From the NCBI RefSeq assembly GCF_002252565.1, contig NZ_NPML01000002.1, positions 124,001-188,000 of the forward strand: a stretch of 64,000 nt of DNA. Direction: 5' to 3'. Shown here piece by piece: positions 6,753 to 53,124 of this stretch (position 1 is the first letter of the stretch; each line of letters begins with the position of its first letter). Under the pieces are notes generated by a model that was given only the letters and a program-made list of their open reading frames with translations, made no database searches and was not told where the DNA came from. Source of the DNA: Petroclostridium xylanilyticum. Its GTDB lineage: Bacteria; Bacillota; Clostridia; SK-Y3. The position numbers and the translations under genes are program-made.

Positions 6753-8330
6753 ATGTTTGGGAAAACAAGAAAACGAAACAGGATGGTAAAACAAAACGCT
6801 GACAGCAGCATTACCATGATTGATACAAATGAACCCATACCGCAGACAATTAAAGCAGTAAGAGCACGACTCAATGAAGTGTTTTCCGAATGCAGCGATT
6901 TTTTACTTCGGGAAATTGCATGCGGAGAAGACAGCTCCATCAAAATGCTGGTGGCATATATCAACGGTTTTGTAGACAAGAGGGTGTTAAACCAGGATGT
7001 GGTCCGCCCAATCCTTGACTATTTTTCAAATGCAAAATTACAGGATAAAAGAAGCCGTACATATGAGATGCTCAAAGAATGTGTTGTCAACAACAACGAC
7101 ATTAAAAAAGCGGAAAATATGCAGCAGGCAGTGGACAATATTTTGTCAGGAGAAGCCTTGCTTTTTATTGATGGAGAAAACAGGGCATTGGTTATCGGAG
7201 TTAAAGCCCCACAGGGCAGGCAGGTAGCAGAGCCAGATACAGAGGTGTCTTTGCGTGGACCGAGGGAGGGCTTTGTCGAGAATCTGCTTATAAACACCAC
7301 ACTCTTACGAAAAAGAATTAAAAACCCTAACCTAAAGCTGGAAATGATACAACTGGGGGAGCAGACCAAAACCGATATTTGCATTTGCTATATCAAGGGG
7401 ATTGCCAATGAGGAGATTGTCAAGGAAGTGCGGGAAAGACTCAAAAAAATCAAAACCGATGCTATCCTCGACTCTGGGTATATCGAGCAGTTTATTTCCG
7501 ACAGTCGGCTATCCCTTTTCCCTACGGTGGGAAACAGCGAAAAATGTGACAAACTGGCAGGAAAGCTGTTGGAAGGACGGGTGGCAATATTCTGTGATGG
7601 GACACCGTATGTCCTTACAGCCCCTTATCTTTTTATAGAGTCTCTGCAAACTTCAGATGATTACTATGACCATGCTTTTTTTGCAACCTTTATGCGGCTG
7701 ATACGTCTGCTTGCATTGCTGGTATCGAATTTGTTGCCAGGAATGTATGTAGCGTTGGTTGGCTTCCACCATACAGTAATTCCCTTCAAGCTGATGATTA
7801 CAATAGCGGCTTCACGGCAGGGGATACCTTTTTCGCCCTTCACTGAAGCAATATTAATGATAGTGGCATTTGAACTCCTCCGTGAAGCGGGTGTCCGTAT
7901 GCCAAGGCCGATAGGCCAAGCATTGAGCGTTGTCGGTGCCATTGTACTGGGAGAGGCGTCGGTTGCAGCAGGTATTGCCAGCAACCTTATGGTGATTATA
8001 ATCGCCATTACAGCCATATGCAGTTTTGTCATTCCACCACTGATCAGGGCAACCATGTTACTACGCTTTGTGTTCCTGGCTGCGGCAAATTTTTTAGGTT
8101 TCCTTGGAATATCCTTTGTGTTTGTCGCTGTTTACATACACCTTTGCAGGCTGCGTTCCTTTGGGGTTCCTTATATGGCACCTTTTTCACCGCTTACGGC
8201 TTCCGACCTTAAAGATTCCTTGGTTGTGGTGCCCATCTGGGCGATGGTGACAAGGCCGAGGATACTGCGGCAGGAGAAAACCAAAGGTGCTGCAGGGATA
8301 AAACGCCAGGGGGTGCGGCTAAAACAGTGA
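6753..8330 (+). CDS. gerKA: Spore germination receptor subunit A
   Basis: A protein of about 525 residues of the GerA family, subunit A of a germinant receptor in the inner membrane of the spore. It has a large soluble N-terminal region with the family features ALLFIDGENRALVIGVKAPQGR and PDTEVSLRGPREGFVENL, then a membrane domain from about residue 300 with several hydrophobic helices (including FHHTVIPFKLMITIA and GIPFSPFTEAILM). The start at 6753 follows GGGTGAT by seven bases. The downstream C and B subunits overlap or abut it, so the operon order is A-C-small-B. Expression is presumably forespore-specific; I did not identify a SigG promoter. Confidence 0.93.
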   Translation: MFGKTRKRNRMVKQNADSSITMIDTNEPIPQTIKAVRARLNEVFSECSDFLLREIACGEDSSIKMLVAYINGFVDKRVLNQDVVRPILDYFSNAKLQDKRSRTYEMLKECVVNNNDIKKAENMQQAVDNILSGEALLFIDGENRALVIGVKAPQGRQVAEPDTEVSLRGPREGFVENLLINTTLLRKRIKNPNLKLEMIQLGEQTKTDICICYIKGIANEEIVKEVRERLKKIKTDAILDSGYIEQFISDSRLSLFPTVGNSEKCDKLAGKLLEGRVAIFCDGTPYVLTAPYLFIESLQTSDDYYDHAFFATFMRLIRLLALLVSNLLPGMYVALVGFHHTVIPFKLMITIAASRQGIPFSPFTEAILMIVAFELLREAGVRMPRPIGQALSVVGAIVLGEASVAAGIASNLMVIIIAITAICSFVIPPLIRATMLLRFVFLAAANFLGFLGISFVFVAVYIHLCRLRSFGVPYMAPFSPLTASDLKDSLVVVPIWAMVTRPRILRQEKTKGAAGIKRQGVRLKQ

Positions 8331-23508: not shown

Positions 23509-24958
23509 GAAGGTAATCGAAAAGCAGCTGGAAATTAAAGAAACAGAGAATTTTAACAGTAAAATATCCATTAATTTGAATTCAATATACTTGCCCCTTG
23601 AAAACCGCAAAGGCCTCAGAATCCCGAGGGACTTTAGGAAACATTCTTGGATCAAAATCAGGTTTGATGTAGACGACGTTGCCGTAATTGCTGTCCGAGC
23701 ATTTACACTCCTTTGGGGGTTCCAAGCCTTTTGTCGCAAACCAGCAACGATATTTAACGCCTTTAGGTTCAACAAAGCCCCAGTTGACCATAGGGATTCC
23801 TCCATGACAAATGGGATGGCCATGGTCATCAAAGCAGAGGATATCCGGGTGGGGATAGTTGAATTTGGCTTTAGTCCTGGAATCCAGAGAGATAAAAGGT
23901 GTAATACCGTAATGCTTTAAAAGCTCATAGATAGGATAGTTGTCCATGGCGCCATCCGCTACAAAGCTTTTAAAATTAAGATATGGATATAGTTTATGGA
24001 TATCCTGGAGGGCGAAGACGGTGGTAATACTATCATGGCGGCTTGCCTGAACCATCTTGATGTAAATGGGAAGGTCATAGGGGCTGTCTGAAGCGGTGAC
24101 ATTGAAAAGAGTATTGCCAAAGAACCACTGTTCGCGGTAACTATCCCATCCCCATTTTGCATCCGGGTCGGAGAACCTTCTGGGGCATTGGCAATTAAAG
24201 ATTCCCTTTGAGCGGCAGTCGCAGACCTTAACACCATAGTGACTGGCGCCAGAATAAAAGGGTGAGCCGTCGAATTTGGCTTAAGCTTTTCGCCAGCCTT
24301 CAGTTTTAACCTTGGCTTGCTGGTAAACTTTTTGACTTTCTTTTTCCGATTCAGGTGAAGCTTACGGTCTGCTCTCCAAAATCGGATTAGGAAATCATAG
24401 TAGGAGGCAGCAGCCGGAGCTTTGACGACAAAACCGCAAATATCAAAAAGCAAAGGATCAGAGGCTACCTTTAAAGCCCAATTTGTGATAGAATAAACCT
24501 GTTGGTCAAGCATTAATACGAGTGAGCGTATTATACCTTGCTGATTTTTGGCGGGTCGGCCAGAATCAGGGTATAAAGGCTTGACTACGGGAAGCAGGTT
24601 ATCCAGGTTGAGTAGATAGAGCTTTGAAATGCTTTTATCCAGTGCAACCAGCCTGCTTCTTTGCGTTTCATAATACAGGAGCATTTTCAGGCGAAGCTTT
24701 TCCTGGTAATTGCAATGTGGTGTCCAATCTCGTAACATAAAAAACCTCCAAAACAGAAGATATGGTAATAAATACCATCCACTTCCATTTTGGGGCGAAC
24801 GTGTGTTTGACAAGATAGATAAGAGCCATTTATGGGTATATATGGGAATATAACTGGAAATTTAGAAAAAATTTTTCATTAAAAAGTAGGGGTGAAGCAG
24901 AAATGCTGAACCTTGAAAATCTATAAAATTAAAGCTCTCTGAGTTTTCGAGAGCGTAC
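23509..24958 (-). mobile_element. Insertion sequence copy 1 (1450 bp), DDE transposase, defective
   Basis: This stretch is nearly identical to 56589-58038: I count five base differences. The match starts at GAAGGTAATCG and ends at GAGAGCGTAC on both sides, which defines the element. The ends share only a weak inverted match (TCGAAAA, eight bases in). No target duplication flanks this copy. The transposase is frameshifted. It lies between the decayed ABC/ribbon-helix-helix genes and the response regulator gene, whose original upstream DNA it probably displaced. Confidence 0.9.
23582..24738 (-). pseudogene. Frameshifted, C-terminally short transposase (copy 1)
   Basis: The start is an ATG behind GGAGG on the minus strand (MLRDWTPHCNYQEKLRLKM). 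The first frame runs through GRPAKNQQGIIRSLVLM and LLFDICGFVVKAP to about 24278. One missing base there shifts the frame; the continuation reads AKFDGSPFYSGASHYGVKV, then FVADGAMDNYPIYELLKHYG (probable catalytic Asp region) and IYIKPDFDPRMFP-like sequence near the end. It stops before the 'RTSVERVN' motif with the last catalytic glutamate that ends related transposases such as the one at 31031. It is therefore doubly defective. The family is IS1182/IS4-like at most; I cannot fix it. Confidence 0.8.
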
Positions 24959-29948: not shown

Positions 29949-30638
29949 TTATTTAAAATAATTTGGGTATTTTTCCATAAGGTCTTTTGTATAAAATTTA
30001 ACTCTTGTGAGATGTATCTTCATTGTATCTTCAGCTTTTTGGGGGTTTCTTTCTTTTATAGCATTCAAGATTGCCAGGTGATCTTGATAAAATGTATCCC
30101 ACATGGAGACGTCGATAGAAGATAAACGCAATATTCTAGTTCTGCTGAACTGTGCGCTTATATACTGTATGCTTTCCCATACCCTTTCTTTCTTTGTACC
30201 TCTGAATAAGAGTTCGTGAAAAGTATCATCATATTTAACGAATTGGCTGTAATTCTTTTCCTTGATACAAAAGTTTTGCATATTTAAATTTTTATCAAGG
30301 TCAAAAAAAACATCCGAAGACAGTTTTTCTGCGGCCAGTTTGACAACTGCGGTTTCCAAAGTTTCTCTCATGAACCTGGATTGTTCTACTAAATCCATGT
30401 CAATTAAAGAGACATAGCTGCCTTTTTGCGGATATGTTTCAATCAAATCTTGATGTGTAAGTTGTATAAATGCTTCTCGGACAGGTGTTCTACTAACATG
30501 TAACAGATCCGCAATATCCTTTTCCGATATGGTAGCGCCCGGTTTGAGGTTAAGATTAATAATATTTTCTTTTAAGATATTATATATATATGTCCTAGTA
30601 GATTCACCTCGGTTTCTAGGCTTTATATTTAAATTCAT
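29949..30638 (-). CDS. GntR-family regulator (FadR/FCD subfamily) of the TRAP-uronate operon
   Basis: A 229-residue repressor-type regulator. The N-terminal winged helix (about residues 10-75) reads YIYNILKENIINLNLKPG, ISEKDIADLLHVSRTPVREAF and LIETYPQKGSYVS. The C-terminal FCD domain has histidine and aspartate ligands for a metal and a small organic acid. The family commonly senses uronates, aldonates or other carboxylic acids. It is divergent from the dctPQM-uxu operon, with an operator-like sequence at both promoters, so it probably controls that operon and itself. The start at 30638 sits behind GAGAGG. Confidence 0.92.
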   Translation of the reverse strand: MNLNIKPRNRGESTRTYIYNILKENIINLNLKPGATISEKDIADLLHVSRTPVREAFIQLTHQDLIETYPQKGSYVSLIDMDLVEQSRFMRETLETAVVKLAAEKLSSDVFFDLDKNLNMQNFCIKEKNYSQFVKYDDTFHELLFRGTKKERVWESIQYISAQFSRTRILRLSSIDVSMWDTFYQDHLAILNAIKERNPQKAEDTMKIHLTRVKFYTKDLMEKYPNYFK

Positions 30639-30675
30639 TTTATATCCTCTCATTTCATTCAGTAATTCTCAGTTT

Positions 30676-30738
30676 GTATACTAATATATTTAAGTATTAG
30701 TATGCTTATATTTTAAATTCTTTTAACGTTATTGTCAA
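30676..30738 (-). promoter_or_regulatory. GntR promoter and operator-like inverted repeat
   Basis: On the minus strand TTGACA (30733-30738), 17 bases and TAAAAT form a good promoter. Just downstream, GTATACTAATA and TATTAGTATGC (30676-30705) form an inverted repeat. The same GTATACTAATATA sequence sits on the promoter of the TRAP operon at 32596, which points to a shared regulator. Confidence 0.65.
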
Positions 30739-30807
30739 TGTATTTCTATAGGTAGTATTTCTCACGGTAAAAGCATGAAAAATCAATTTTCCAATGGAGT
30801 AATTTGC

Positions 30808-30848
30808 GATGTCTGGGAACACGCTGAAACAGCATGTTCCCAGACATC
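30808..30848. repeat. Perfect hairpin near the IS left flank
   Basis: GATGTCTGGGAACA and TGTTCCCAGACATC are exact 14-base arms, with a second small stem GCTG/CAGC inside. It lies between the GntR promoter and the insertion sequence. No T tract follows. It may be a terminator blocking transcription toward the IS or a small repeat; I cannot tell. Confidence 0.5.
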
Positions 30849-30956
30849 AATAAAATAATTTTACCCCAGGAAAACGTAAAGAAATGCAGCTTTGAAGCGC
30901 ATGCAAAATATAAAATGTAAAAACTACACCCAGGAATAAAAAAATCCTAAAAAAGC

Positions 30957-32216
30957 GTGAAACCCGCTTTACTGTAGTGTATAATGGTAATTGACGATCA
31001 CAAAAACACTAAAGAAAAGGGGTTTCACATATGGCTATTATACCACAACAAACACTATTTGTGTGGAGTGAAATTGAAAATTTAGGAGATTTGGAAAGAT
31101 TAAGACTTGTCATTGAATATATGCCCGATGAAGAATTAATGGATAAACTTGAAAGAGAACGGAAGAACGGTCGTGATGATTACCCTGTAAGGGCCATGTG
31201 GAATTCAATATTGGCAGGAGTTGTATTTGGGCATATATCAATAGAAAGCTTAAGGCGTGAGCTTTCGAGGAATGGGCAGCTAAGAGAAATCCTCCCGGAC
31301 TTTGGGAAAGATCTGGCGATAGACAGCAAGGCTATATCTTCTCTTTCAAAGCGTGAGAACAAAAACGCCAAAGCAGACGGGAGAAGAGATAAGGATGCAG
31401 ACTGGGGCAAAAAGGAGTACCGTGGAGTAAGGGAAGACGGGACAGCGTGGGAGAAAATAGTAAAATGGTTTGGATATAAACTGCATCTGATAGTTGATGC
31501 CAATTATGAACTTCCTGTAGCATTCAGTGTAACTAAGGCTTCAGAAGCTGATATCAACGAAGCACACCGAATGATAGACAAACTTGATGCCCAAAGGCCT
31601 GAAATATTGGAAAGTTGTGAAACAATGGAAGCAGACCGGGGCTATGATGACAGTAAGCTATTAGTAAAGCTTTATGATGAATATGAGATAAAACCGGTAA
31701 TAGATATTCGGAATATGTGGAAGGATCCTGACGGGACACGAATGTTAGAAGAATACGAAAATGTAGTATACAACTACAAGGGAAACGTATACTGCTATTG
31801 TCTTGAGACAGGAAAAAAGAGAGAAATGGCCTGTGGTGGGTTTGAGAAGGACAGAAAGACATTAAAGAAGTTGTGCCCGGCAAAGCAGTACGGGCTTGAG
31901 TGCGAATGCACTGATAAATGTTGTGTAAAGCATGGCATAAGGATATCGATTGAAACGGACCGTAGGATATTTACACCGATAGACCGGGCAAGCTATAAAT
32001 GGGAAAGATATTATAACAAGAGGACATCCGTAGAGAGGGTAAACAGCAGGCTGGACGAATCATTTGGGTTTGAGAAGCATTATATCCGCGGTAAAACAAA
32101 AATGACAGTACGCTGCGGAATTGCTTTATGTGTAATGCTTGCAATGGCAGTAGGAAGGATAAAAGAAAAACAGCAGGATAAAATAAGAAGCCTTGTAAAA
32201 CCTGCTTAAGATAACG
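30957..32216 (+). mobile_element. Insertion sequence with intact DDE transposase; ends not defined
   Basis: The transposase gene and its leader lie between the GntR gene and the TRAP operon it probably controls. GTGAAACCC (30957) and GGGTTTCAC (31020-31028) can pair and would hide the transposase ribosome binding site AAAAGGGG, a common way for IS elements to avoid expression from outside transcripts. I found no clear terminal inverted repeats or target duplication, so the limits given are minimal. Confidence 0.65.
31031..32209 (+). CDS. DDE transposase, apparently full length
   Basis: A 392-residue transposase of the DDE_Tnp_1 type (IS1182/IS4-like). It shows an N-terminal helix-turn-helix region (YPVRAMWNSILAGVVFGHIS, ESLRRELSRN), the first catalytic aspartate in FGYKLHLIVDAN, the second in EADRGYDDSKLL, and the glutamate in KRTSVERVNSRLDESFGFEKHY. 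All three catalytic residues are present, so the enzyme could be active. AAAGGGG precedes the start within a potential hairpin. It differs from the transposase of the two 1450-bp copies elsewhere in the window. Confidence 0.9.
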   Translation: MAIIPQQTLFVWSEIENLGDLERLRLVIEYMPDEELMDKLERERKNGRDDYPVRAMWNSILAGVVFGHISIESLRRELSRNGQLREILPDFGKDLAIDSKAISSLSKRENKNAKADGRRDKDADWGKKEYRGVREDGTAWEKIVKWFGYKLHLIVDANYELPVAFSVTKASEADINEAHRMIDKLDAQRPEILESCETMEADRGYDDSKLLVKLYDEYEIKPVIDIRNMWKDPDGTRMLEEYENVVYNYKGNVYCYCLETGKKREMACGGFEKDRKTLKKLCPAKQYGLECECTDKCCVKHGIRISIETDRRIFTPIDRASYKWERYYNKRTSVERVNSRLDESFGFEKHYIRGKTKMTVRCGIALCVMLAMAVGRIKEKQQDKIRSLVKPA

Positions 32217-32460
32217 AGGTGCAGGAGACATCCTGCGGGATGCAATGGGACATTGACGGGGCGGCGGGGTATCTCCGCCTGTTAACTCTCTTCCCCGCCC
32301 TTTGAGGGCGTGGATACAGAGGGGAGGGTGGTTGTTGTCTTTTCTGAAGGTAGGGGGTCACATCCGCAGAGTTAGGGGTATTCCTTTCAAGGAGGAAATG
32401 TTCCCGGATGATAAATTTAAAGAGGCTTCGCCCCTTAAACCCCATAAGCTGGTAATTTTT
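32217..32460. other. GC-rich structured stretch after the transposase
   Basis: This gene-free stretch is much richer in G and C than its surroundings and holds several inverted repeats: GCAGGA/TCCTGC around GACA at about 32220, and a GGGGCGG/CCCCGCCC pair between 32258 and 32302. It could be the right end of the IS or a structured RNA. No coding signal is seen. Confidence 0.4.
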
Positions 32461-32573
32461 TTAGTATTTTTTTTATAAAAAAGTGCTACAAAGCAAAAAG
32501 CTTCAATGAAAGATTTATTGACATTTTTCTCAAAAAACATACACAAAGCAAAAAATTTTTTTATGTAGTCTTA

Positions 32574-32609
32574 TTGACAAATAATTTATAAACAGGTATA
32601 CTAATATAC
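32574..32609 (+). promoter_or_regulatory. Promoter of the TRAP-uronate operon with overlapping GntR operator
   Basis: TTGACA, exactly 17 bases and TATACT form a near-consensus promoter. The palindrome-like GTATACTAATATAC (32596-32609) covers the -10 box and matches the repeat in front of the GntR gene. A repressor bound here would block polymerase. Confidence 0.75.
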
Positions 32610-32635
32610 AAGTAAAAAAAGGAGGTTGTAAAGTT

Positions 32636-33682
32636 ATGAAAAAATTATTGATCTTGGTTTTAGCGTCATTACTAATCTTATCTGCAGTTGGATGTGGTAA
32701 GCAGTCAGCGAACACACCGCCTGTGGCAGGTTCTGACGGCTCAACCGGAGGAACTGGTACTCCTCAAGACGTAAAAAAAGGCGAATATGTATTGAAGGTA
32801 GGAACAGTTCTTACAGAAGCAGATCCTCTCTATAAAGGACTCGAAAAATTCAAACAGAACGTTGAAGAAAGAACAAAGGGTGCTGTTGAAGTACAGCTCT
32901 TTGCAAGCTCACAGCTAGGTAGCGACGAAGATATTCTTGAACAAGCTAAAGTCGGTGCGGGTGTCGGTGTTATCACTGATCCAGGACGACTGAGCTCATA
33001 TATAAAGGAATTCGGAATTCTTGGTGGTCCGTACCTTGTTGATAGCTATGAGGAAAGTCTGAAGCTGCTTGATACATCCGTGTATAAAGATTTTGTAGAA
33101 CAGTTTGCGGATGACGGACTCAGAATACTTTCTTTCAATTACTTCCAAGGAACAAGACAACTTTTCACAAAAAACCCAGTATCTAAGCCTGAAGACTTAA
33201 AGGGTCAACGGATAAGAAGCTCTGGTTCTGATATTGTTACTCTTACAGTACAGAACATGGGAGCAAATCCGACAGTTCTCGCGTGGTCTGAGGCATATCC
33301 TGGCCTTCAGCAGAAGGTTATTGACGGTGTAGAGGTTCATTACTCTGCGGCTGTAGGGTCCAGTATATTTGAAGTGACGAATTACCTTTCTAAGACAGCG
33401 CACTTCCAACTGCTCACAGGACTTGTTATTTCAAACTCCTGGTTTGAAAAACTACCTGCCGAATATCAGCAGATTCTTACCGAAGAATCCTATAACGCTG
33501 GGAAATATGCGTCAGAGCAAGTTATAGCGAAGAATGCCGAATATGAGAAAACGCTTTTGGATAAAGGTCTGAAGATGGTTGATGTTGATATTGACGCTTT
33601 CAAAAAGGCTACCGAGCCTGTTTATGACAAGCTTGGCTACAGAAAACTTAAGGATAAAATAGATGCTGAATTGGGTAAATAA
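32636..33682 (+). CDS. dctP: TRAP transporter solute-binding lipoprotein
   Basis: A 348-residue DctP-type binding protein. The signal peptide ends SAVGC with a lipidated cysteine at residue 20. Typical motifs include KGLEKFKQNVEERTKGAVEVQLF, QLGSDEDILEQ and the ligand-binding arginine region GQRIRSSGSDI. TRAP transporters import carboxylates, here probably an aldonate or uronate judging from the downstream enzymes. AAAGGAGG precedes the start. It is the first gene of the operon. Confidence 0.95.
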   Translation: MKKLLILVLASLLILSAVGCGKQSANTPPVAGSDGSTGGTGTPQDVKKGEYVLKVGTVLTEADPLYKGLEKFKQNVEERTKGAVEVQLFASSQLGSDEDILEQAKVGAGVGVITDPGRLSSYIKEFGILGGPYLVDSYEESLKLLDTSVYKDFVEQFADDGLRILSFNYFQGTRQLFTKNPVSKPEDLKGQRIRSSGSDIVTLTVQNMGANPTVLAWSEAYPGLQQKVIDGVEVHYSAAVGSSIFEVTNYLSKTAHFQLLTGLVISNSWFEKLPAEYQQILTEESYNAGKYASEQVIAKNAEYEKTLLDKGLKMVDVDIDAFKKATEPVYDKLGYRKLKDKIDAELGK

Positions 33683-33925: not shown

Positions 33926-34432
33926 ATGCGTTTAATTAAAATAGAGGAAGTGGTCGTAGTTACGCTCCTGTCAGCGGTAGTTTTATTGGTATTCATAGCC
34001 GCTCTGCTCAGATGGTTTGGTTTATCTGTAGCATGGTCGATAGATATGGCGCAGCTTTTGTTTGTATGGGTTTGTTTTATCGGTGCGGACCTCTCTCTGA
34101 GAATCGACAAGCATATCGGTATAGATATGTTGACAAAAAAATTCCCTTTAAAGGTTCAAAATATAATAGCATTGCTCAACAATATTTTGATTATGGCCTT
34201 TGTGTTGTTGATATTCTATTATGGAACAAAACTCGGTATCAAAAATTATAAACGTCATTTTAACACAATGCCCATAAGCTATTCTTATGTTACATTTAGT
34301 GCACCTTTTGGTTGCCTTTTGATGGCTCTTACTGTCATTGGCAGAATAAAAAAGAATATAATGAACTTCATTAAGAATGATTATTCAAGTCTGGTGAAAG
34401 AAGAGAAGTTAGAGGGGGGGCAGATTATATGA
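33926..34432 (+). CDS. dctQ: TRAP transporter small membrane subunit
   Basis: A 168-residue protein with four membrane helices. The hallmark stretch AWSIDMAQLLFVWVCFIGAD followed by RIDKHIGID is diagnostic of DctQ subunits. It partners the large DctM subunit and accepts the binding protein. Its stop overlaps the dctM start (ATGA). Confidence 0.93.
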   Translation: MRLIKIEEVVVVTLLSAVVLLVFIAALLRWFGLSVAWSIDMAQLLFVWVCFIGADLSLRIDKHIGIDMLTKKFPLKVQNIIALLNNILIMAFVLLIFYYGTKLGIKNYKRHFNTMPISYSYVTFSAPFGCLLMALTVIGRIKKNIMNFIKNDYSSLVKEEKLEGGQII

Positions 34433-35709
34433 TTTATGTTGCAATAGCGTTTCTGGTTCTTCTGGCATTGAATCTTCCACTGGCGTTTACGATAGGTATT
34501 TCCAGTTTGCTTTACTTTTTTGCAAGTGGTTTGCCTCTTGAAATTGCTACACAGAGAATGGTCACCAGTACACAATCCTTTCCCTTACTTGCTGTGCCGT
34601 TTTTTGTGTTGGCGGGAAACCTGATGAATGAGACAGGTATTACAAGAAGGCTTATAAGTTTTTCTAAGGTTATAACAGGACATATGCGAGGTGGTTTGGC
34701 ACAGGTAAGTATTGTGCTTAGTGCCCTTATGGGAGGTATTTCCGGTTCTGCCACAGCCGATGCCGCTATGGAGAGTCGTGTACTTGGTCCTTCAATGATC
34801 CAGAGAGGTTATTCCAAGGGATTTATTGCCGCTGTCCTTGCGATGGGTGGACTTATTACAGCCACTATTCCTCCCAGTATAGGACTTATTCTTTACGGAT
34901 TTGTAGGAGAAGTTTCCATAGGAAAATTGTTTCTCGCAGGAATTATTCCCGGAGTGCTTCTGACAATAGCTTTTATGGTCGCAACTGCCATTATTTCAAA
35001 AAAAAGAAACTATGTGGTTGAGAGACCGAACCCCCCTTCACTAGGAGAAGTGTTTCATGAGCTTCGCTCAAACATTCTTGCATTGATATTTCCGCTTATA
35101 CTTATCGTTGGTATAAGATTCGGTATATTTACCGCATCCGAAGCGGGAGCGTTTGCTGTAGTGTATGCCTTTGTAATAGGCAAATTCGTATACAAAGAAC
35201 TAACGTATAAAAAGTTGATAGAGGTATTGAAACAAACGTCGCTTGATATTGGTATTATCATGTTTATTATTATATGTTCGGCCATCTTCGGATATATAAT
35301 GGTTTCTGACCAGGTGCCTCAGCATCTGGCAGGCTTTATTACCGGAATTTCCAGCCAGCCCGTAATTATTCTGTTTATTATTCTGGCGTTCTTGTTTGTA
35401 ATCGGAATGTTTATGGAAGCTACTGTTAATGTACTGATTTTGACACCGATATTCCTGCCCATCATCAAGTCTGTAGGCTATGATCCGGTGCATTTCGGAA
35501 TATTATTTATGATAATCAATACAATGGGAGGTATGACTCCGCCAGTTGGTGTTACAATGTACACCACGTGCTCACTGCTTGAATGTCCGACAGAGGTTTA
35601 TGTCAAAGAATCGTTACCTTTTATCGCAGCGGTATTGCTGTTGATTGTAATATTGGCATTGTTTCCTCAGATAGTTTTATTTATACCTAATATGGTATTT
35701 GGAGTATAA
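34429..35709 (+). CDS. dctM: TRAP transporter large membrane subunit
   Basis: A 426-residue sodium-coupled transporter subunit with about twelve helices. DctM signatures are present: LAVPFFVLAGNLMNETGIT, LMGGISGSATADAA, ITATIPPSIGLILYG and NTMGGMTPPVGVTMY. It overlaps dctQ by four bases, giving a complete DctPQM system. The transported substrate is inferred from the next genes. Confidence 0.95.
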   Translation: MIYVAIAFLVLLALNLPLAFTIGISSLLYFFASGLPLEIATQRMVTSTQSFPLLAVPFFVLAGNLMNETGITRRLISFSKVITGHMRGGLAQVSIVLSALMGGISGSATADAAMESRVLGPSMIQRGYSKGFIAAVLAMGGLITATIPPSIGLILYGFVGEVSIGKLFLAGIIPGVLLTIAFMVATAIISKKRNYVVERPNPPSLGEVFHELRSNILALIFPLILIVGIRFGIFTASEAGAFAVVYAFVIGKFVYKELTYKKLIEVLKQTSLDIGIIMFIIICSAIFGYIMVSDQVPQHLAGFITGISSQPVIILFIILAFLFVIGMFMEATVNVLILTPIFLPIIKSVGYDPVHFGILFMIINTMGGMTPPVGVTMYTTCSLLECPTEVYVKESLPFIAAVLLLIVILALFPQIVLFIPNMVFGV

Positions 35710-35728: not shown

Positions 35729-36733
35729 ATGAGAGTTAAATTCGAAGAAATGAAAAATGAAATTAAAAGAGTTTTTATGAAGTATGGTATGGAAGAAGCA
35801 AAAGCTGATATATGTGCACAGATTCATACCGAGAGTAGTTGTGACGGTATTTATTCACACGGTTTAAACAGGGTCGCGCGATTTGTAGATTATGTTAATA
35901 AGGGTTGGGTTGATGTCAACGCAGAGCCTTCACTTGAAAAAGCTTTTGGAGCAATTGAGGTATATAACGGTAATATGGGTCCCGGTGTACTTAATGCTAT
36001 GTTTGCTACGAATAAGGCAATTGAATTGGCAGATAAGTACGGTATAGGTATGGTTGGTTTTAAAAATACCACTCACTGGATGCGAGGAGGGACATACGGA
36101 TTGTATGCTGCCAGAAAAGGTTATGTAGCATTGATGTGGACAAATACCGAATCAGTTATGCCGCCTTGGGGTGGAAAAGAAGTCAAATTGGGCAATAATC
36201 CTTTTATTATGGCAGTACCGACAAAAGGTGAACCTGTTGCAGTGGATATGGCTATATCCCAATATTCATACGGCAAGCTGCAGGTTACCAGACTTGCAGG
36301 GAAGAAACTACCATATCCCGGCGGATTTGATAAAGACGGCAATCTCACGGATGTTCCCGGTCTGATTGAGGAATCAATGAGAATATTGCCTATGGGTTAC
36401 TGGAAGGGCGCAAGTTTTTCATTTATGCTTGATGTTCTTGGAGCTATACTTTCTGACGGTATAGGAGCGGTGGATATAGATAAAGTCGGAAAGGGTAGTT
36501 GTGGCGGCGCATCACAAATATTTATCATAATAGATCCGAAGAAAATATGCAGTGAAGATAAAATAGAGGATACTATTAATAAAGCGATAGGACATCTGAA
36601 GAGCTCCGAGCTTGCAGAAGGTTTTAACGAAATTTACTATCCTGGAGAAGATTTTATTAGATTTAGAAAAGATAACCTTGAAAATGGCATTCCGGTGGAT
36701 GAGGGTATCTGGAAAGAAATCAAAGAATTATAA
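35729..36733 (+). CDS. Malate/L-lactate dehydrogenase-family oxidoreductase, YiaK-like
   Basis: A 334-residue NAD(P)H-dependent enzyme of the Ldh2/YiaK family, which includes 2,3-diketo-L-gulonate reductase. Motifs include DGIYSHGLNRVARFVDYV (catalytic His), NTTHWMRGGTYGLYAARKGY and LGNNPFIMAVP, and SYGKLQVTRLAGKKLPYPGG. AAAGGATG precedes the ATG at 35729. Its place after a TRAP transporter mirrors the E. coli yiaKLMNO cluster for diketogulonate uptake, so reduction of a sugar-acid ketone is likely. The exact substrate is not determined. Confidence 0.88.
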   Translation: MRVKFEEMKNEIKRVFMKYGMEEAKADICAQIHTESSCDGIYSHGLNRVARFVDYVNKGWVDVNAEPSLEKAFGAIEVYNGNMGPGVLNAMFATNKAIELADKYGIGMVGFKNTTHWMRGGTYGLYAARKGYVALMWTNTESVMPPWGGKEVKLGNNPFIMAVPTKGEPVAVDMAISQYSYGKLQVTRLAGKKLPYPGGFDKDGNLTDVPGLIEESMRILPMGYWKGASFSFMLDVLGAILSDGIGAVDIDKVGKGSCGGASQIFIIIDPKKICSEDKIEDTINKAIGHLKSSELAEGFNEIYYPGEDFIRFRKDNLENGIPVDEGIWKEIKEL

Positions 36734-36744
36734 TTAGTATATAA

Positions 36745-36788
36745 AGGCTACTTCAAAAGTATTTTTTTAAAATGCTTTTGAATAGCCT
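36745..36788 (+). terminator. Hairpin between the YiaK-like gene and uxuB
   Basis: AGGCTA...TTCAAAAG pairs with CTTTTGAA...TAGCCT, with ATTTT/AAAAT inside and one unpaired C. It may partially terminate or stabilise the transporter part of the transcript. Confidence 0.55.
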
Positions 36789-36924
36789 CTTTAAGATTTT
36801 CAAGCATTTTATTTCATCTATAAGTTTATCTATAAAGAGCCAGAGCTGCTCCTATTTTGTGATTAAGGGAATTTTTGGTAAACCTAATAGGTGTGAAATA
36901 TTATCAAAGGAAGGATTAATTCAG

Positions 36925-38541
36925 ATGTTAAACTTAAGCATTGCAAGCATAAAAAATAAAAAAGTCTGGCAGGAGGCTAAAATAGAACTTCCAGAATTCG
37001 ACTATGATAAAATTGCGGCGAATACCAGGGAAAACCCGACCTGGGTGCACTTTGGAGCCGGAAACATATTTAGAGGTTTTATTGCTGTACTACAGCAAAA
37101 ACTTCTGGATTTGGGTAAAGCCGATACCGGAATTATAGCAGTAGAGACCTTTGATTTTGAAATAATAGACAAGATTTATGCTCCGTATGATAACTTAAGT
37201 CTTCTGGTTATTATGAATCCTGACGGAAGCTTGGAAAAAAAGGTAGTAGCAAGTATAACTGAGGGATTGGTTGGAGATGTATCAAGAGAGAAAGACTGGA
37301 ATCGATTGAAGGAAATTTTCACAAAACCTAGCCTGCAAATGGCTAGTTTCACTATCACGGAAAAAGGATATAGTCTTAAGAAGATTTCGGGTGAATACTT
37401 TGATAATGTTTTGGCGGATATGCAAAACGGGCCTGAAAAACCAACACATGCTATGTCCAAGGTTGCTGCGCTGGCATACACCAGATATAAAAGCGGCGAG
37501 CTGCCTATTGCTTTTGTGAGTATGGATAACTGTGCTCATAACGGAGAAAAGCTTCATGAATCTGTAGAAATGATTGTAAAGAAATGGGTGGAAAACGGAC
37601 TGGTGGAGAGTGAGTTTTTGACATATATCAATAACCCGAGTAAAGTTTCTTTCCCATGGTCTATGATTGATAAAATCACTCCAAGACCTTCTGAGGCGGT
37701 AAAAGATTCGTTGAACTCAGCAGGTTTTGAAAACACCGAAATAGTGTACACCTCTAAAAATACCTATATTGCTCCTTTTGTTAATGCAGAAGGTCCTCAG
37801 TATTTGGTTATTGAAGATGCTTTTCCTAATGGACGTATGCCCCTTGATTTAGCAGGAGTGTTGTTTGTTGATAGAGAGACAGTGGATAAGGTTGAGAAAA
37901 TGAAGGTTTGTACATGCTTAAATCCGCTGCATACAGCACTTGCTGTATATGGATGTCTTCTTGGATATACCTTGATTGCCGATGAAATGAAAGACAGCAC
38001 TTTGAAAAAATTGGTTGAAAAGATAGGATATGAAGAAGGTCTGCCTGTAGTTATAAATCCTGGTGTAATAAATCCGCAAGATTTCATTCGAGAAGTGATA
38101 GAACAAAGACTTCCTAATCCCTATATACCCGATTCGCCACAAAGGATTGCTACCGATACTTCACAAAAGGTGGGTATCAGATTTGGAGAGACTATTAAAG
38201 CTTATGTGAAAAGAGAGGACTTGAATCCTATGACCCTTATATTTATTCCCTTGGCCATCGCCGGTTGGTGCAGGTACTTATTAGGAGTAGATGATAATGG
38301 GAAAGCAATGCCATTAAGTCCCGACCCGATGCTGGATACGCTGAGATCATACCTTGCAGATGTAAAGTTAGGTGACAGCGAATCTGTGGGGGATAGCTTG
38401 AAACCTATCCTATCTAATGGGAGTCTGTTTGGCTTAAACCTATATGATGTGGGACTGGGAGAAAAGATTGAGGGGTATTTCAAGGAACTGGTATCAGGAA
38501 ATAATGCTGTAAGAACAACGTTGCAAAAATATTTAGGCTGA
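36925..38541 (+). CDS. uxuB: D-mannonate oxidoreductase (fructuronate reductase)
   Basis: A 538-residue member of the long-chain mannitol dehydrogenase family, which interconverts D-fructuronate and D-mannonate with NADH. It has the Rossmann start VHFGAGNIFRGFIAVLQQ, the substrate-site segment FVSMDNCAHNG and PWSMIDKITPRP, and CLNPLHTALAVYGCLLG in the C-terminal domain. The start at 36925 sits behind AAGGAAGG; the open frame extends further upstream but without a plausible start. UxuA, the next enzyme of the pathway, lies two genes downstream. Confidence 0.9.
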   Translation: MLNLSIASIKNKKVWQEAKIELPEFDYDKIAANTRENPTWVHFGAGNIFRGFIAVLQQKLLDLGKADTGIIAVETFDFEIIDKIYAPYDNLSLLVIMNPDGSLEKKVVASITEGLVGDVSREKDWNRLKEIFTKPSLQMASFTITEKGYSLKKISGEYFDNVLADMQNGPEKPTHAMSKVAALAYTRYKSGELPIAFVSMDNCAHNGEKLHESVEMIVKKWVENGLVESEFLTYINNPSKVSFPWSMIDKITPRPSEAVKDSLNSAGFENTEIVYTSKNTYIAPFVNAEGPQYLVIEDAFPNGRMPLDLAGVLFVDRETVDKVEKMKVCTCLNPLHTALAVYGCLLGYTLIADEMKDSTLKKLVEKIGYEEGLPVVINPGVINPQDFIREVIEQRLPNPYIPDSPQRIATDTSQKVGIRFGETIKAYVKREDLNPMTLIFIPLAIAGWCRYLLGVDDNGKAMPLSPDPMLDTLRSYLADVKLGDSESVGDSLKPILSNGSLFGLNLYDVGLGEKIEGYFKELVSGNNAVRTTLQKYLG

Positions 38542-38573: not shown

Positions 38574-39593
38574 ATGAAAGCAGCTAGGGTTATTTCACCA
38601 AAGAATCTGGAAATATGTGAAGTTCCAATGCCTGAAATAACCAATGAAGATGAGATTTTAATAAAAGTTAAGGCAGCAGGTATATGTGGCTCTGATATTC
38701 ATATATATCATGGGACATCTCCTGTAGCAACATATCCAAGGATTATTGGCCATGAAGTTGTAGGAAAAGTAATAAAAGTTGGAGATAAAGTAAAAAAATT
38801 TGACGTTGGTGATCATGTTATAGTGGACCCTGTTATTGGGTGTGGTGAATGTTATCCATGTTCGGTGGGAAGACCCAATGTATGTTCATATCTTAAAGTA
38901 CGTGGAGTGCATGAGGATGGGGGATACCGGGAATATATGGTACTGCCTCAAAACAGTATCCACAAGATCCCGAAAGAACTAAGCTGGGAAGAAGCTGTTC
39001 TTATTGAGCCGTTTACCATAGCTGCTCAGATTGTTTCACGTGCAGAAGTAACCAAAAGGGATACGGTATTTATCATGGGTGCAGGTCCGGCAGGGCTTTG
39101 CGCAGTACAGGCAATTAAGAGAATCGGTGCAAAATGTATCATCTCGGACCTGGTTGAGTCCAGGCTCGAGTTGGCTAAAAAAATGGGTGCGGATATTACC
39201 ATCAATCCTTCAAAACAAGATGTAGAAGAAGTAATTATGAATGAAAGCAACGGTTTGGGCGTTTCGGTTATTATTGATGCGGTATGCATACCGCAAACAT
39301 TTGAGCAGGCGGTAAAACTGGCTTCTTCAGCCGGAAGGGTTATTCTTCTTGGTTTTACGGATAAGCCTTCACAGATAGCTCAGCTTGAGATTACCAAAAA
39401 AGAATTGGATGTGAGGGGATCAAGACTTCATAGCAATAAATTTCCACAGGTAATTGAGTGGTTTAATAATAAGGAAGTAGACCCAAAGCCGCTTATATCG
39501 AATGTATATCCATTTACAGATATTAAAAAGGCTATTGAGCAGGTAGAAAATAATCCTATTGAAACATTTAAGGTTATTTTAAAATTTGACTAA
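38574..39593 (+). CDS. Zinc-dependent alcohol dehydrogenase, L-gulonate/idonate 5-dehydrogenase-like
   Basis: A 339-residue medium-chain dehydrogenase. The catalytic zinc site is AGICGSDIHIY and IIGHEVVGKV with GDHV; the structural zinc has four cysteines in GCGECYPCSVGRPNVC. The NAD site is IMGAGPAGLCAVQAI. RspB/YjjN-type enzymes of this group oxidise L-gulonate or L-galactonate to fructuronate or tagaturonate. Between UxuB and UxuA, that role would feed the fructuronate-mannonate route. AGGAGGGGGG precedes the start. Confidence 0.85.
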   Translation: MKAARVISPKNLEICEVPMPEITNEDEILIKVKAAGICGSDIHIYHGTSPVATYPRIIGHEVVGKVIKVGDKVKKFDVGDHVIVDPVIGCGECYPCSVGRPNVCSYLKVRGVHEDGGYREYMVLPQNSIHKIPKELSWEEAVLIEPFTIAAQIVSRAEVTKRDTVFIMGAGPAGLCAVQAIKRIGAKCIISDLVESRLELAKKMGADITINPSKQDVEEVIMNESNGLGVSVIIDAVCIPQTFEQAVKLASSAGRVILLGFTDKPSQIAQLEITKKELDVRGSRLHSNKFPQVIEWFNNKEVDPKPLISNVYPFTDIKKAIEQVENNPIETFKVILKFD

Positions 39594-39617: not shown

Positions 39618-40697
39618 ATGAAAATGACATTTAGATGGTTTGGAGAAAACTATGATAGTATTTCTCTGGACAAAATAAGGCAGATACCTGGTTCACCGGG
39701 TATAGTAAGTGCTATTTACGATGTACCTGTAGGGGAAGTATGGCCGGTGGAAAAAATAAAGAACTTAAAAGACACTGTAGAAAGAAGCGGTCTGGAATTA
39801 GAAGTAATTGAAAGCGTAAATGTCCATGAAGACATTAAACTGGGACTTCCGACTAGAGATAGGTATATAGAAAATTATAAAGAAACGTTAAGGAATCTGT
39901 CCAAATTCGGCATTAAAGTAGTATGTTATAATTTTATGCCTGTATTTGACTGGACCCGATCGGACTTAGCAAAGGTTTTGCCTGATGGATCTAACGCTTT
40001 ATCTTATGAAGAAGAAAAAGTGCAAAAAGTAGACCCTAACAAGCTGGTAGAAGAAATGGAAGCGAATTCAAACGGCTTTGAATTGCCAGGTTGGGAGCCA
40101 GAAAGACTAAAAGTGCTAAAAGACCTTTTTGAACAATATAAGGATGTAGATGAAGAAAAGCTGTTTGAAAATCTTGGATACTTTCTGAAAGAAATTATTC
40201 CTGTCGCTGAAGAATGTGATATCAAGATGGCAATACATCCGGATGATCCGCCGTGGTCAATTTTTGGATTGCCAAGAATTACCACATGCAAGAAAAATCT
40301 AGAAAGAATCATTAATTTGGTAGACAGTCCATATAATGGATTGACATTGTGCAGTGGCTGTTTGGGTGCAAATCCAGAGAACAACATTCCTGAAATGATT
40401 CGTTACTTTGGTGGAAAAGGAAGAATACATTTTGGACATGTAAGAAATATAAAGATACATTCATATAGAAACTTTGATGAGGCATCCCATCTATCCTCAG
40501 ATGGATCATTAGATATGTTTGAAATCATGAAAGCATACCATGATATTGATTATAAGGGATATATAAGACCAGACCATGGAAGAATGATTTGGGGAGAAGT
40601 AGGAAGACCAGGTTATGGTTTATATGATAGAGCACTTGGAATCACATATTTAAACGGACTGTGGGAAGCGATAGATAAGATGAAAAAGATAGGCTAA
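39618..40697 (+). CDS. uxuA: D-mannonate dehydratase
   Basis: A 359-residue enzyme converting D-mannonate to 2-keto-3-deoxygluconate in the hexuronate pathway. Family motifs include [37 protein letters not shown], the metal-site segment [32 protein letters not shown] and GYIRPDHGR. Length fits the family. It ends the operon and is followed by a strong terminator. The KDG kinase and aldolase that would complete the pathway are not in the window. Confidence 0.96.
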
Positions 40698-51333: not shown

Positions 51334-53124
51334 ATGTTTTGGGAAGCTATTATTCATGAACAAACAAGAGATTATGTTTATCCAATAGAAAGGAATAAAT
51401 TGGCGATAAGACTGAAAATAAAGAGAAAAGATGCAAAATCTTGTACCTTGATTTATTGGAACAGACATAAAAGAGAACGAACAGGAGAACAACATTCTGA
51501 AATGAAATGTTATGCCAGAGATAAAATGTTTGATTACTATGAAACAATTATAAATACAAAGGAGGTTACAAGGTATATTAAATATTTTTTTCAAATTAAT
51601 GATGGCATTAATACATTTTTCCTAAATTATCATGGTATAAGCAGTTCGGTTCCTAAAGATGGCTTTTTTGAATACTTATATACTAATGAAAATGATGTTT
51701 TTAAAGTGCCTGATTGGGTAAAAGGCTCTATATTTTATCAAATTTTCCCTGAAAGGTTTTGCAACGGAGATAAAAATAATGATCCTAAAAGTACAGAACA
51801 ATGGGGTAGTAAACCCACTAGAGAGAATTTTATGGGGGGGGATTTAAAAGGAATAATTCAAAAAATACATTATCTTAAAGATCTGGGTATAAACGCTTTA
51901 TATCTTAATCCTATCTTTGAAGCCTCTGCTAACCATAAGTATGATACTATAAATTATTTTAAAATTGATCCGCATTTTGGAGACTTAAACGATTTTAAAA
52001 CATTAATACATAAGTGTCATTCATATGGGATAAAGGTTATACTTGATGGTGTTTTTAATCACTGTGGATATTTTTCAGACCAATTCCAGGATGTAGTAAA
52101 AAATGGTCAAAATTCAAAATACAAGGATTGGTTTTATATTGAAAGTTTTCCGGTTGATAAAGAAAAATTAAACTATGAGTGCGTTGGCTATTATAAGTGG
52201 ATGCCCAAGCTAAGGATGAGCAATCCGGAAGTTAGAAGTTTTATACTTAAGATTGCAAAGTACTGGATTGAAGAAGGAAATATTGATGGATGGCGTCTGG
52301 ATGTAGCCGATGAAATTGATTTTACATTCTGGCAGGAGTTCAGAAAACTGGTTAAGTCTATAAAGCCTGAATGCTTTATTTTAGCTGAGACATGGAAGGA
52401 AAATAGAGATATGCTCCGTGGAGATCAGATGGATTCAGTAATGAATTATCTTTTTAGAGATGCAGTAGTTGACTTCTTTGCAAAAAAATGTATTAATAGT
52501 TTAGAGTTTGATTCAAGGATTAACAAATTTTTAGGCGTTTATCCTTCGTCTGTACATCATTCACTATTTAATCTTATTGGAAGCCATGATACAGAAAGGT
52601 TCCTGACACTTAGTAATGGTGATAGTAGGAGACTGAAGGCAGCTGCAGCATTTCAATTATGTTTCCCGGGTATTTCTTCCATATATTATGGGGATGAAGT
52701 AGGGTTGGATGGAGAAAATGACCCTGATTGCAGGAAGGCAATGGAATGGGATGAAAAGAAACAAGATCAAAAACTTCTGGAATGGTATAAGAAACTTATA
52801 AGGATTAGAAAATCAAAGTCCGCATTAAAGTTAGGAATTTTCAAATGTAATTACTGCAACTCAGAAGATAACGTGTATGCATTTTTCAGGGAAATAAATA
52901 ATGAAAGAGTCTATATTGTCATAAATAATGCTGATTCAACTATTCAAGTCATACTTCCAGTCAAAGAGCAAAGTTGTGGTTTTCTAACAGATGAAATTTC
53001 AGGAAAAATTTATAGAATAGAACAGCTGGATAACAGCATTTATTACAATGACGATATCATTGATTATTCAGGTACTTTACATATTCAACTTAAGCCATAT
53101 CAAGTATGTATTTTATGCAAGTAA
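51334..53124 (+). CDS. Intracellular GH13 neopullulanase/cyclomaltodextrinase-type enzyme
   Basis: A 596-residue amylase-family enzyme without a signal peptide. Residues 1-110 form an N-terminal CBM34-like beta domain. The barrel shows SIFYQIFPERFCNGD and the catalytic set: nucleophile Asp in GWRLDVADEIDF, acid/base Glu in FILAETWKENRD and stabilising Asp in IGSHDTERFL. The N-terminal domain and the MGGDLKGIIQKIHYLKDLG stretch fit subfamily 20 enzymes that cut cyclodextrins, pullulan or maltodextrins in the cytoplasm. The start at 51334 is preferred because AAAAAGG abuts the earlier ATG at 51325. Confidence 0.9.
   Translation: MFWEAIIHEQTRDYVYPIERNKLAIRLKIKRKDAKSCTLIYWNRHKRERTGEQHSEMKCYARDKMFDYYETIINTKEVTRYIKYFFQINDGINTFFLNYHGISSSVPKDGFFEYLYTNENDVFKVPDWVKGSIFYQIFPERFCNGDKNNDPKSTEQWGSKPTRENFMGGDLKGIIQKIHYLKDLGINALYLNPIFEASANHKYDTINYFKIDPHFGDLNDFKTLIHKCHSYGIKVILDGVFNHCGYFSDQFQDVVKNGQNSKYKDWFYIESFPVDKEKLNYECVGYYKWMPKLRMSNPEVRSFILKIAKYWIEEGNIDGWRLDVADEIDFTFWQEFRKLVKSIKPECFILAETWKENRDMLRGDQMDSVMNYLFRDAVVDFFAKKCINSLEFDSRINKFLGVYPSSVHHSLFNLIGSHDTERFLTLSNGDSRRLKAAAAFQLCFPGISSIYYGDEVGLDGENDPDCRKAMEWDEKKQDQKLLEWYKKLIRIRKSKSALKLGIFKCNYCNSEDNVYAFFREINNERVYIVINNADSTIQVILPVKEQSCGFLTDEISGKIYRIEQLDNSIYYNDDIIDYSGTLHIQLKPYQVCILCK

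Follow-up and report, generated by a model that had tools for sequence, protein, structure and literature searches.

Transcriptional regulators of the FadR subfamily of GntR proteins are described as binding A/T-rich palindromes in which TKGT and ACMA boxes lie 2 or 3 nt apart, and the GT-N2-AC core within this consensus is of the UxuR type (PMC4494728). GntR operators are known to include weaker additional half-sites at 7–12 nt, and in FadR-subfamily divergons the sites come in pairs, one for each operon (PMC4494728). The 2015 survey that sets out these patterns includes a single clostridial protein (PMC4494728). Several described systems combine such a regulator with sugar-acid genes. UxuR of gamma-proteobacteria belongs to the FadR subfamily (PMC4494728), and in Haemophilus influenzae the gulPQM-gulD-uxuAB-uxuR gene set combines a TRAP transporter, a gulonate dehydrogenase and uxuAB and serves the L-gulonate pathway (PMC5788505). 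In Thermotoga maritima the GntR-family protein UxaR (TM0439, PDB 3SXY) has a site upstream of kdgAK-uxuBA, binding to which was demonstrated by fluorescence polarisation (PMC3750489). Escherichia coli NanR, also of the GntR type, recognizes GGTATA or TGGTATAW direct repeats with several cooperating dimers (PMC8012715, PMC4494728), and this cooperativity depends on a 32-residue N-terminal extension (PMC8012715). In the literature searched we found no published clostridial GntR operator of uxu genes, although RegPrecise may list such a regulon.

The locus described here lies in a 64-kb stretch of DNA (the window) and resembles each of these systems in part. It shares the GT-N2-AC operator core with UxuR and the combination of TRAP transporter, dehydrogenase and uxuAB-type genes with H. 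influenzae. It differs from UxuR in the regulator itself and in an operator that adds flanking units on an 8-bp lattice, and from UxaR in that the two proteins give only a 52-bit phmmer match and the UxaR genes serve pectin and galacturonate. Between its two divergent promoters now sits an insertion sequence (IS), and each promoter carries an array of what is very probably the operator of the adjoining regulator.

The regulator and the sugar-acid operon

The regulator gene (29949..30638, minus strand) encodes 229 aa from an ATG behind a ribosome-binding-like GAGAGG; with an alternative start at the ATG at 30653, the protein would have 234 aa. Both the N-terminal winged helix and the C-terminal FCD domain exceed their Pfam cut-offs (GntR 57.3 bits against 27, FCD 75 bits against 24.3), as expected of the GntR/FadR subfamily. 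Given that the protein scores only 30 bits against a cut-off of 442 for the NCBIfam UxuR equivalog (PRK10225, Uxu operon regulator), we call it UxuR-like in role and not UxuR.

Diverging from it on the plus strand is an operon that starts with the TRAP solute-binding protein DctP (32636..33682), DctQ (33926..34432) and DctM (34429..35709), all assigned by profile match. These are followed by a YiaK-like dehydrogenase of the 3-dehydro-L-gulonate 2-dehydrogenase family (35732..36733; 385.7 bits against a cut-off of 316), a UxuB-like member of the mannitol/fructuronate dehydrogenase family (36772..38541; below the NCBIfam cut-offs and with an uncertain start, 36916 being possible), a Zn-dependent dehydrogenase (38574..39593; PRK10083, 378.9 bits against 376) that is possibly an L-gulonate 5-dehydrogenase, and the D-mannonate dehydratase UxuA (39618..40697; profile match). 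A search that picked up UxaC in 7 of 14 control genomes detected none in this genome, and hence there is no apparent route by which UxaC would supply fructuronate from glucuronate. Because of this, and because the gene set is like that of the H. influenzae L-gulonate pathway, we infer that the substrate is gulonate or mannonate rather than a hexuronate.

At E ≤ 1e-30, a class-wide search detected the regulator in 28 of 391 genomes, a count that takes in the genome of the window itself; within the window's family the same threshold was passed by 2 of the 6 genomes compared. Each of the 27 other genomes contributed one locus, with a second match in one of them (G318, 31% identity) left out. A scan of the GntR protein against genome contigs gave one distant spirochaete as its sole match. 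The orthologues at these 27 loci are 33–46% identical to the window regulator, and in a tree of 55 proteins all 28 orthologues fall on one side of a branch, albeit one of low support (66/53). At 19 of the 27 loci uxuA and/or uxuB lies within the fetched stretch, a conserved linkage of the kind expected for a local uronate/gulonate regulator, and one of the loci outside those 19 has kdgA-kdgK beside the regulator.

Operator motif and its 8-bp lattice

The two top-scoring sites in a sigma-A-like promoter scan of 30600-32700, which returned 7 sites where shuffles predict 5.8, match 11 of 12 positions each and are the promoters of the regulator (TTGACA-17-TAAAAT, 30738-30710, minus strand) and of dctP (TTGACA-17-TATACT, 32574-32602, plus strand). 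The sequence GTATACTAATATA, which the initial annotation had reported at both promoters, indeed occurs exactly and on the plus strand twice, at 30676-30688, a short way downstream of the GntR/FCD promoter, and at 32596-32608, where it covers the -10 box (TATACT) of the dctPQM-uxu promoter. The 14-bp palindrome GTATAYTARTATAC has its single exact occurrence in the genome (G000, 3.86 Mb in 41 contigs) at 32596, and the 30676 site is the same palindrome with one mismatch. Across the whole genome, matches with up to two mismatches are found 108 times per strand and those of a reversed-pattern control 129 times; hence the motif is not widespread, and pattern scans point to no further regulon members in the genome. 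A shared 13-mer was reached in 39 of 5,000 Markov simulations of two such flanks and in 10 of 4,964 random segment pairs from the window, and taken alone it is evidence short of overwhelming.

The operator question is settled instead by a motif that was learned from other genomes and picks out both promoters. The training set comprised 55 upstream stretches of at most 260 bases each from the 27 orthologue loci, window excluded, with some divergent regions counted twice and several loci near-copies of one another. The top enriched 8-mers, ACTAGTAT, CTAGTATA and GTATACTA, occur at 14–15 of the 27 loci against 0.6–0.7 expected from random stretches. Scanned across the 64-kb window, the palindromic 18-bp matrix derived from the upstream stretches places 32598-32615 at the top (17.4 bits), 30670-30687 third (12.6 bits), 32590-32607 fourth and 30694-30711 fifth (10.0 bits). 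The second-ranked site, at 51672, lies within an amylase-like coding frame and is regarded as a chance match. Leaving out one locus at a time, the best score is at least 12 bits at 23 of 27 orthologue loci, and the other four reach 11.1 (L085), 10.5 (L099), 6.4 (L106) and 4.5 (L093); L093 does carry a site with two mismatches upstream of dctP, outside the tested stretches. None of 27 upstream regions of paralogous FCD regulators scores 12 or more, with these regions positioned from the match start and the start codons unrefined. Of 60 versions of the window simulated with a first-order Markov model, 3 contain a site that scores as high as the top one, so position at the two promoters outweighs the score itself. 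Together, these comparisons give good support to reading the site as the operator of the local GntR/FCD regulator.

The operator unit proper is a 10-bp dyad, TWGTATACWA, that repeats every 8 bp. The reported 13-mer is thereby refined to two overlapping units of this kind, and further units at 30698-30715 had been overlooked. At the GntR promoter the array (30674-30715) lies directly downstream of the -10 box and has core units at 30674-30683 (12.5 bits), 30682-30691 (2.8), 30698-30707 (7.6) and 30706-30715 (1.9), all on a single 8-bp lattice, the last and weakest overlapping the -10 box. The array on the dctP -10 box (32594-32611) has two cores, 32594-32603 (5.2 bits) and 32602-32611 (9.7 bits), with centres 8 bp apart. 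Both arrays consist of A/T-rich palindromes with the boxes of the FadR/FCD operator 2 nt apart, and the K of TKGT is kept in part only, the second letter here being A or T.

The same lattice recurs in the orthologue loci. In the 34 regions that remained once repeats had been removed, another core scoring 4 bits or more was present at 31% of the sites offset by 8 bp from the top-scoring core. The corresponding figure for a consensus core placed in random flanks is 1.2%, a control that allows for the preference for 8-bp overlap that the TA ends of the dyad create. Of 26 loci, 18 carry another core, scoring 2 bits or more, exactly 8 bp away, none carries one at 6, 7, 9 or 10 bp, and one each is found at 11 and 12 bp; the matrix behind these counts was trained on 18-bp sites and near-copy loci inflate the numbers. 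The control region is otherwise fairly ordinary, with a binding code common to related bacteria, and the strict lattice is its one unusual point, which suggests cooperative assembly of the NanR kind. The fixed short spacing is a NanR-type feature, but the units here are dyads, and because the winged helix begins after only about 12 residues (229-aa form), in place of the roughly 32-residue extension of NanR, the likeness is one of working principle and not of membership. As a tentative extension, a group of clostridial FCD regulators might use a strict 8-bp lattice of overlapping dyads with two to four dimers side by side, cooperating as NanR does but without its N-terminal extension, and array length might tune each promoter separately, so that a split by an IS would be tolerated. 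The motif offers a usable operator code for this group of sugar-acid catabolism regulators in the class (read as Clostridia), and with the lattice there is a second group in which NanR-like assembly can be tested.

The insertion sequence and the earlier layout

The element between the promoters, an IS as the initial annotation had proposed, is identified by homology and spans about 1.7 kb (30797..32504, plus strand), with ends good to a few bases. Homology to a copy in another genome (L125, G021:C14) covers 30797-32501, and a 144-bp right-end remnant on contig C3, 99% identical, stops at about 32504. The ends, GAGTAATTTGC and GCAAAAAGCTTC, form an imperfect inverted repeat, and they are flanked by AATG on the left (30793..30796, seen in the sequence and placed by the homology ends) and on the right (32505..32508, seen in the sequence), which we treat only as a candidate target-site duplication because 4-base repeats can arise by chance. 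The IS stops 58 bp short of the -35 box of the GntR promoter and 69 bp short of that of dctP.

Its transposase frame (31031..32209, plus strand, 392 aa) is open, yet 42–45 residues that all three aligned relatives retain are missing right after R85 (about 31285), and the transposase is thus probably defective. The protein is of the DDE type, and we name the element IS1182-like only, since its best NCBIfam match, IS1182, gives 97.1 bits against a cut-off of 270. The initial annotation had called the transposase intact, a part of its reading that is not borne out; the shared operator, the divergent genes and the survival of both promoters, which the IS misses, all hold, as does the compact region that it placed before the insertion. 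No second full copy of the IS was found in the genome, where it is otherwise represented by fragments. The remnant on contig C3 (L056, about 7153-7296) has a PfkB-type kinase frame on one side and a small downstream gene on the other, and no transposase frame is listed beside it. The L125 copy has a large internal deletion and stands directly behind a conjugation-type-ATPase-like frame. Inside the left end of the window's element, 30808-30848 forms a 41-base near-perfect hairpin (19-nt arms, 95% complementary, 3 nt apart), and a similar, slightly diverged hairpin occurs in the L125 copy.

With the IS removed and the flanks joined, 270 bp separate the starts at 30653 and 32636 (285 bp from 30638), and the array centres, now 1,920 bp apart, come to lie 208 bp apart. 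Relatives offer compact divergent versions of this region with other gene orders. In a genome of the same family (G001, L050), dctPQM-gntR diverges from uxuA-uxuB, the aligned ends of the genes lying about 296 bp apart, with one array on each side of the intergenic stretch. At L109 (G119), gntR diverges over about 150 bp from a Zn-dehydrogenase-dctPQM operon, with the array just behind a TTGACA-17-TATTCT promoter, and at L098 (G137) a strong array occupies the space between gntR and the divergent kdgA-kdgK. From these three loci it follows that a compact divergent region with these operators is real in relatives; the window's exact gene order without the IS was seen in none of those compared. 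The promoter pair at 208 bp or 1.9 kb amounts to a natural experiment on whether the operators work alone.

Proposed regulation and other sites in the genome

We propose ordinary local repression with autoregulation. The GntR/FCD protein would repress the gulonate/mannonate operon and its own gene by occupying the 8-bp-phased TWGTATACWA arrays over the dctP -10 box and over the beginning of its own transcript, and a sugar-acid intermediate (gulonate, fructuronate or mannonate) would release it. Repression fits because one array lies on a -10 box (dctP) and the other just after one (GntR). The IS1182-like element would have inserted between the two promoters, which lie back to back, without reaching either -35 box or either array; as an operator remains at each promoter, the two sides are probably still controlled independently of each other. 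The IS is then most likely a bystander that leaves both control units whole, and we hold this account as a whole with high confidence.

The arrays could instead once have formed a looped pair, with the IS abolishing or weakening cooperative repression and leaving dctP partly derepressed. Two separate arrays, with 208 bp between them once the flanks are joined and 1,920 bp now, would suit such a loop, and some GntR proteins are reported to bind several adjacent sites cooperatively (PMC4494728). Against this, an array on each promoter is the published pattern of operon-specific double sites in FadR-subfamily divergons (PMC4494728), and the preservation of both arrays is what would be expected if each acts alone; the helical phase (208 bp, or 19.8 turns at 10.5 bp) is not decisive. 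We regard looping as unlikely. Less probable still is that the IS drives the operon through transcription that reads from the transposase promoter into dctP: the two genes are on the same strand with no terminator-like plus-strand site between them, but the native dctP promoter is intact at 11 of 12 positions, and between it and the transposase there is no dctP-facing promoter-like site.

It strikes us as very improbable that the motif is that of a different regulator, or that it arises from an AT-rich promoter in which a TATACT -10 box is extended by chance. The 13-mer does include a -10 box, and the simulations show that a match of its length can arise between such flanks; yet the motif was found de novo next to orthologues of the window regulator, is absent at the 27 paralogues, and matches the FadR-subfamily consensus as published (PMC4494728).

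Beyond the window, the best matrix site among the scanned loci of the genome (14.4 bits, L003/L139) lies between two frames, which we take to be uppS and frr, and is regarded as chance. A weak 12-bit site at L159 (7363-7380) stands upstream of a kdgA-kdgK pair with an adjoining IclR-type gene. Between that gene and kdgA are repeated GTGAACCGTGAACTGTGAAC-like sequences (7390-7480), and CTCAATTCTCAATTCTCAATT-like runs come immediately before kdgA. Contig C19 carries two near-identical KDPG/KHG aldolase genes (L159 and L160) separated by about 62 kb, with a third near 632 kb. Within the window, two overlapping minus-strand frames at 23582-24813 resemble pieces of one broken transposase-like gene.
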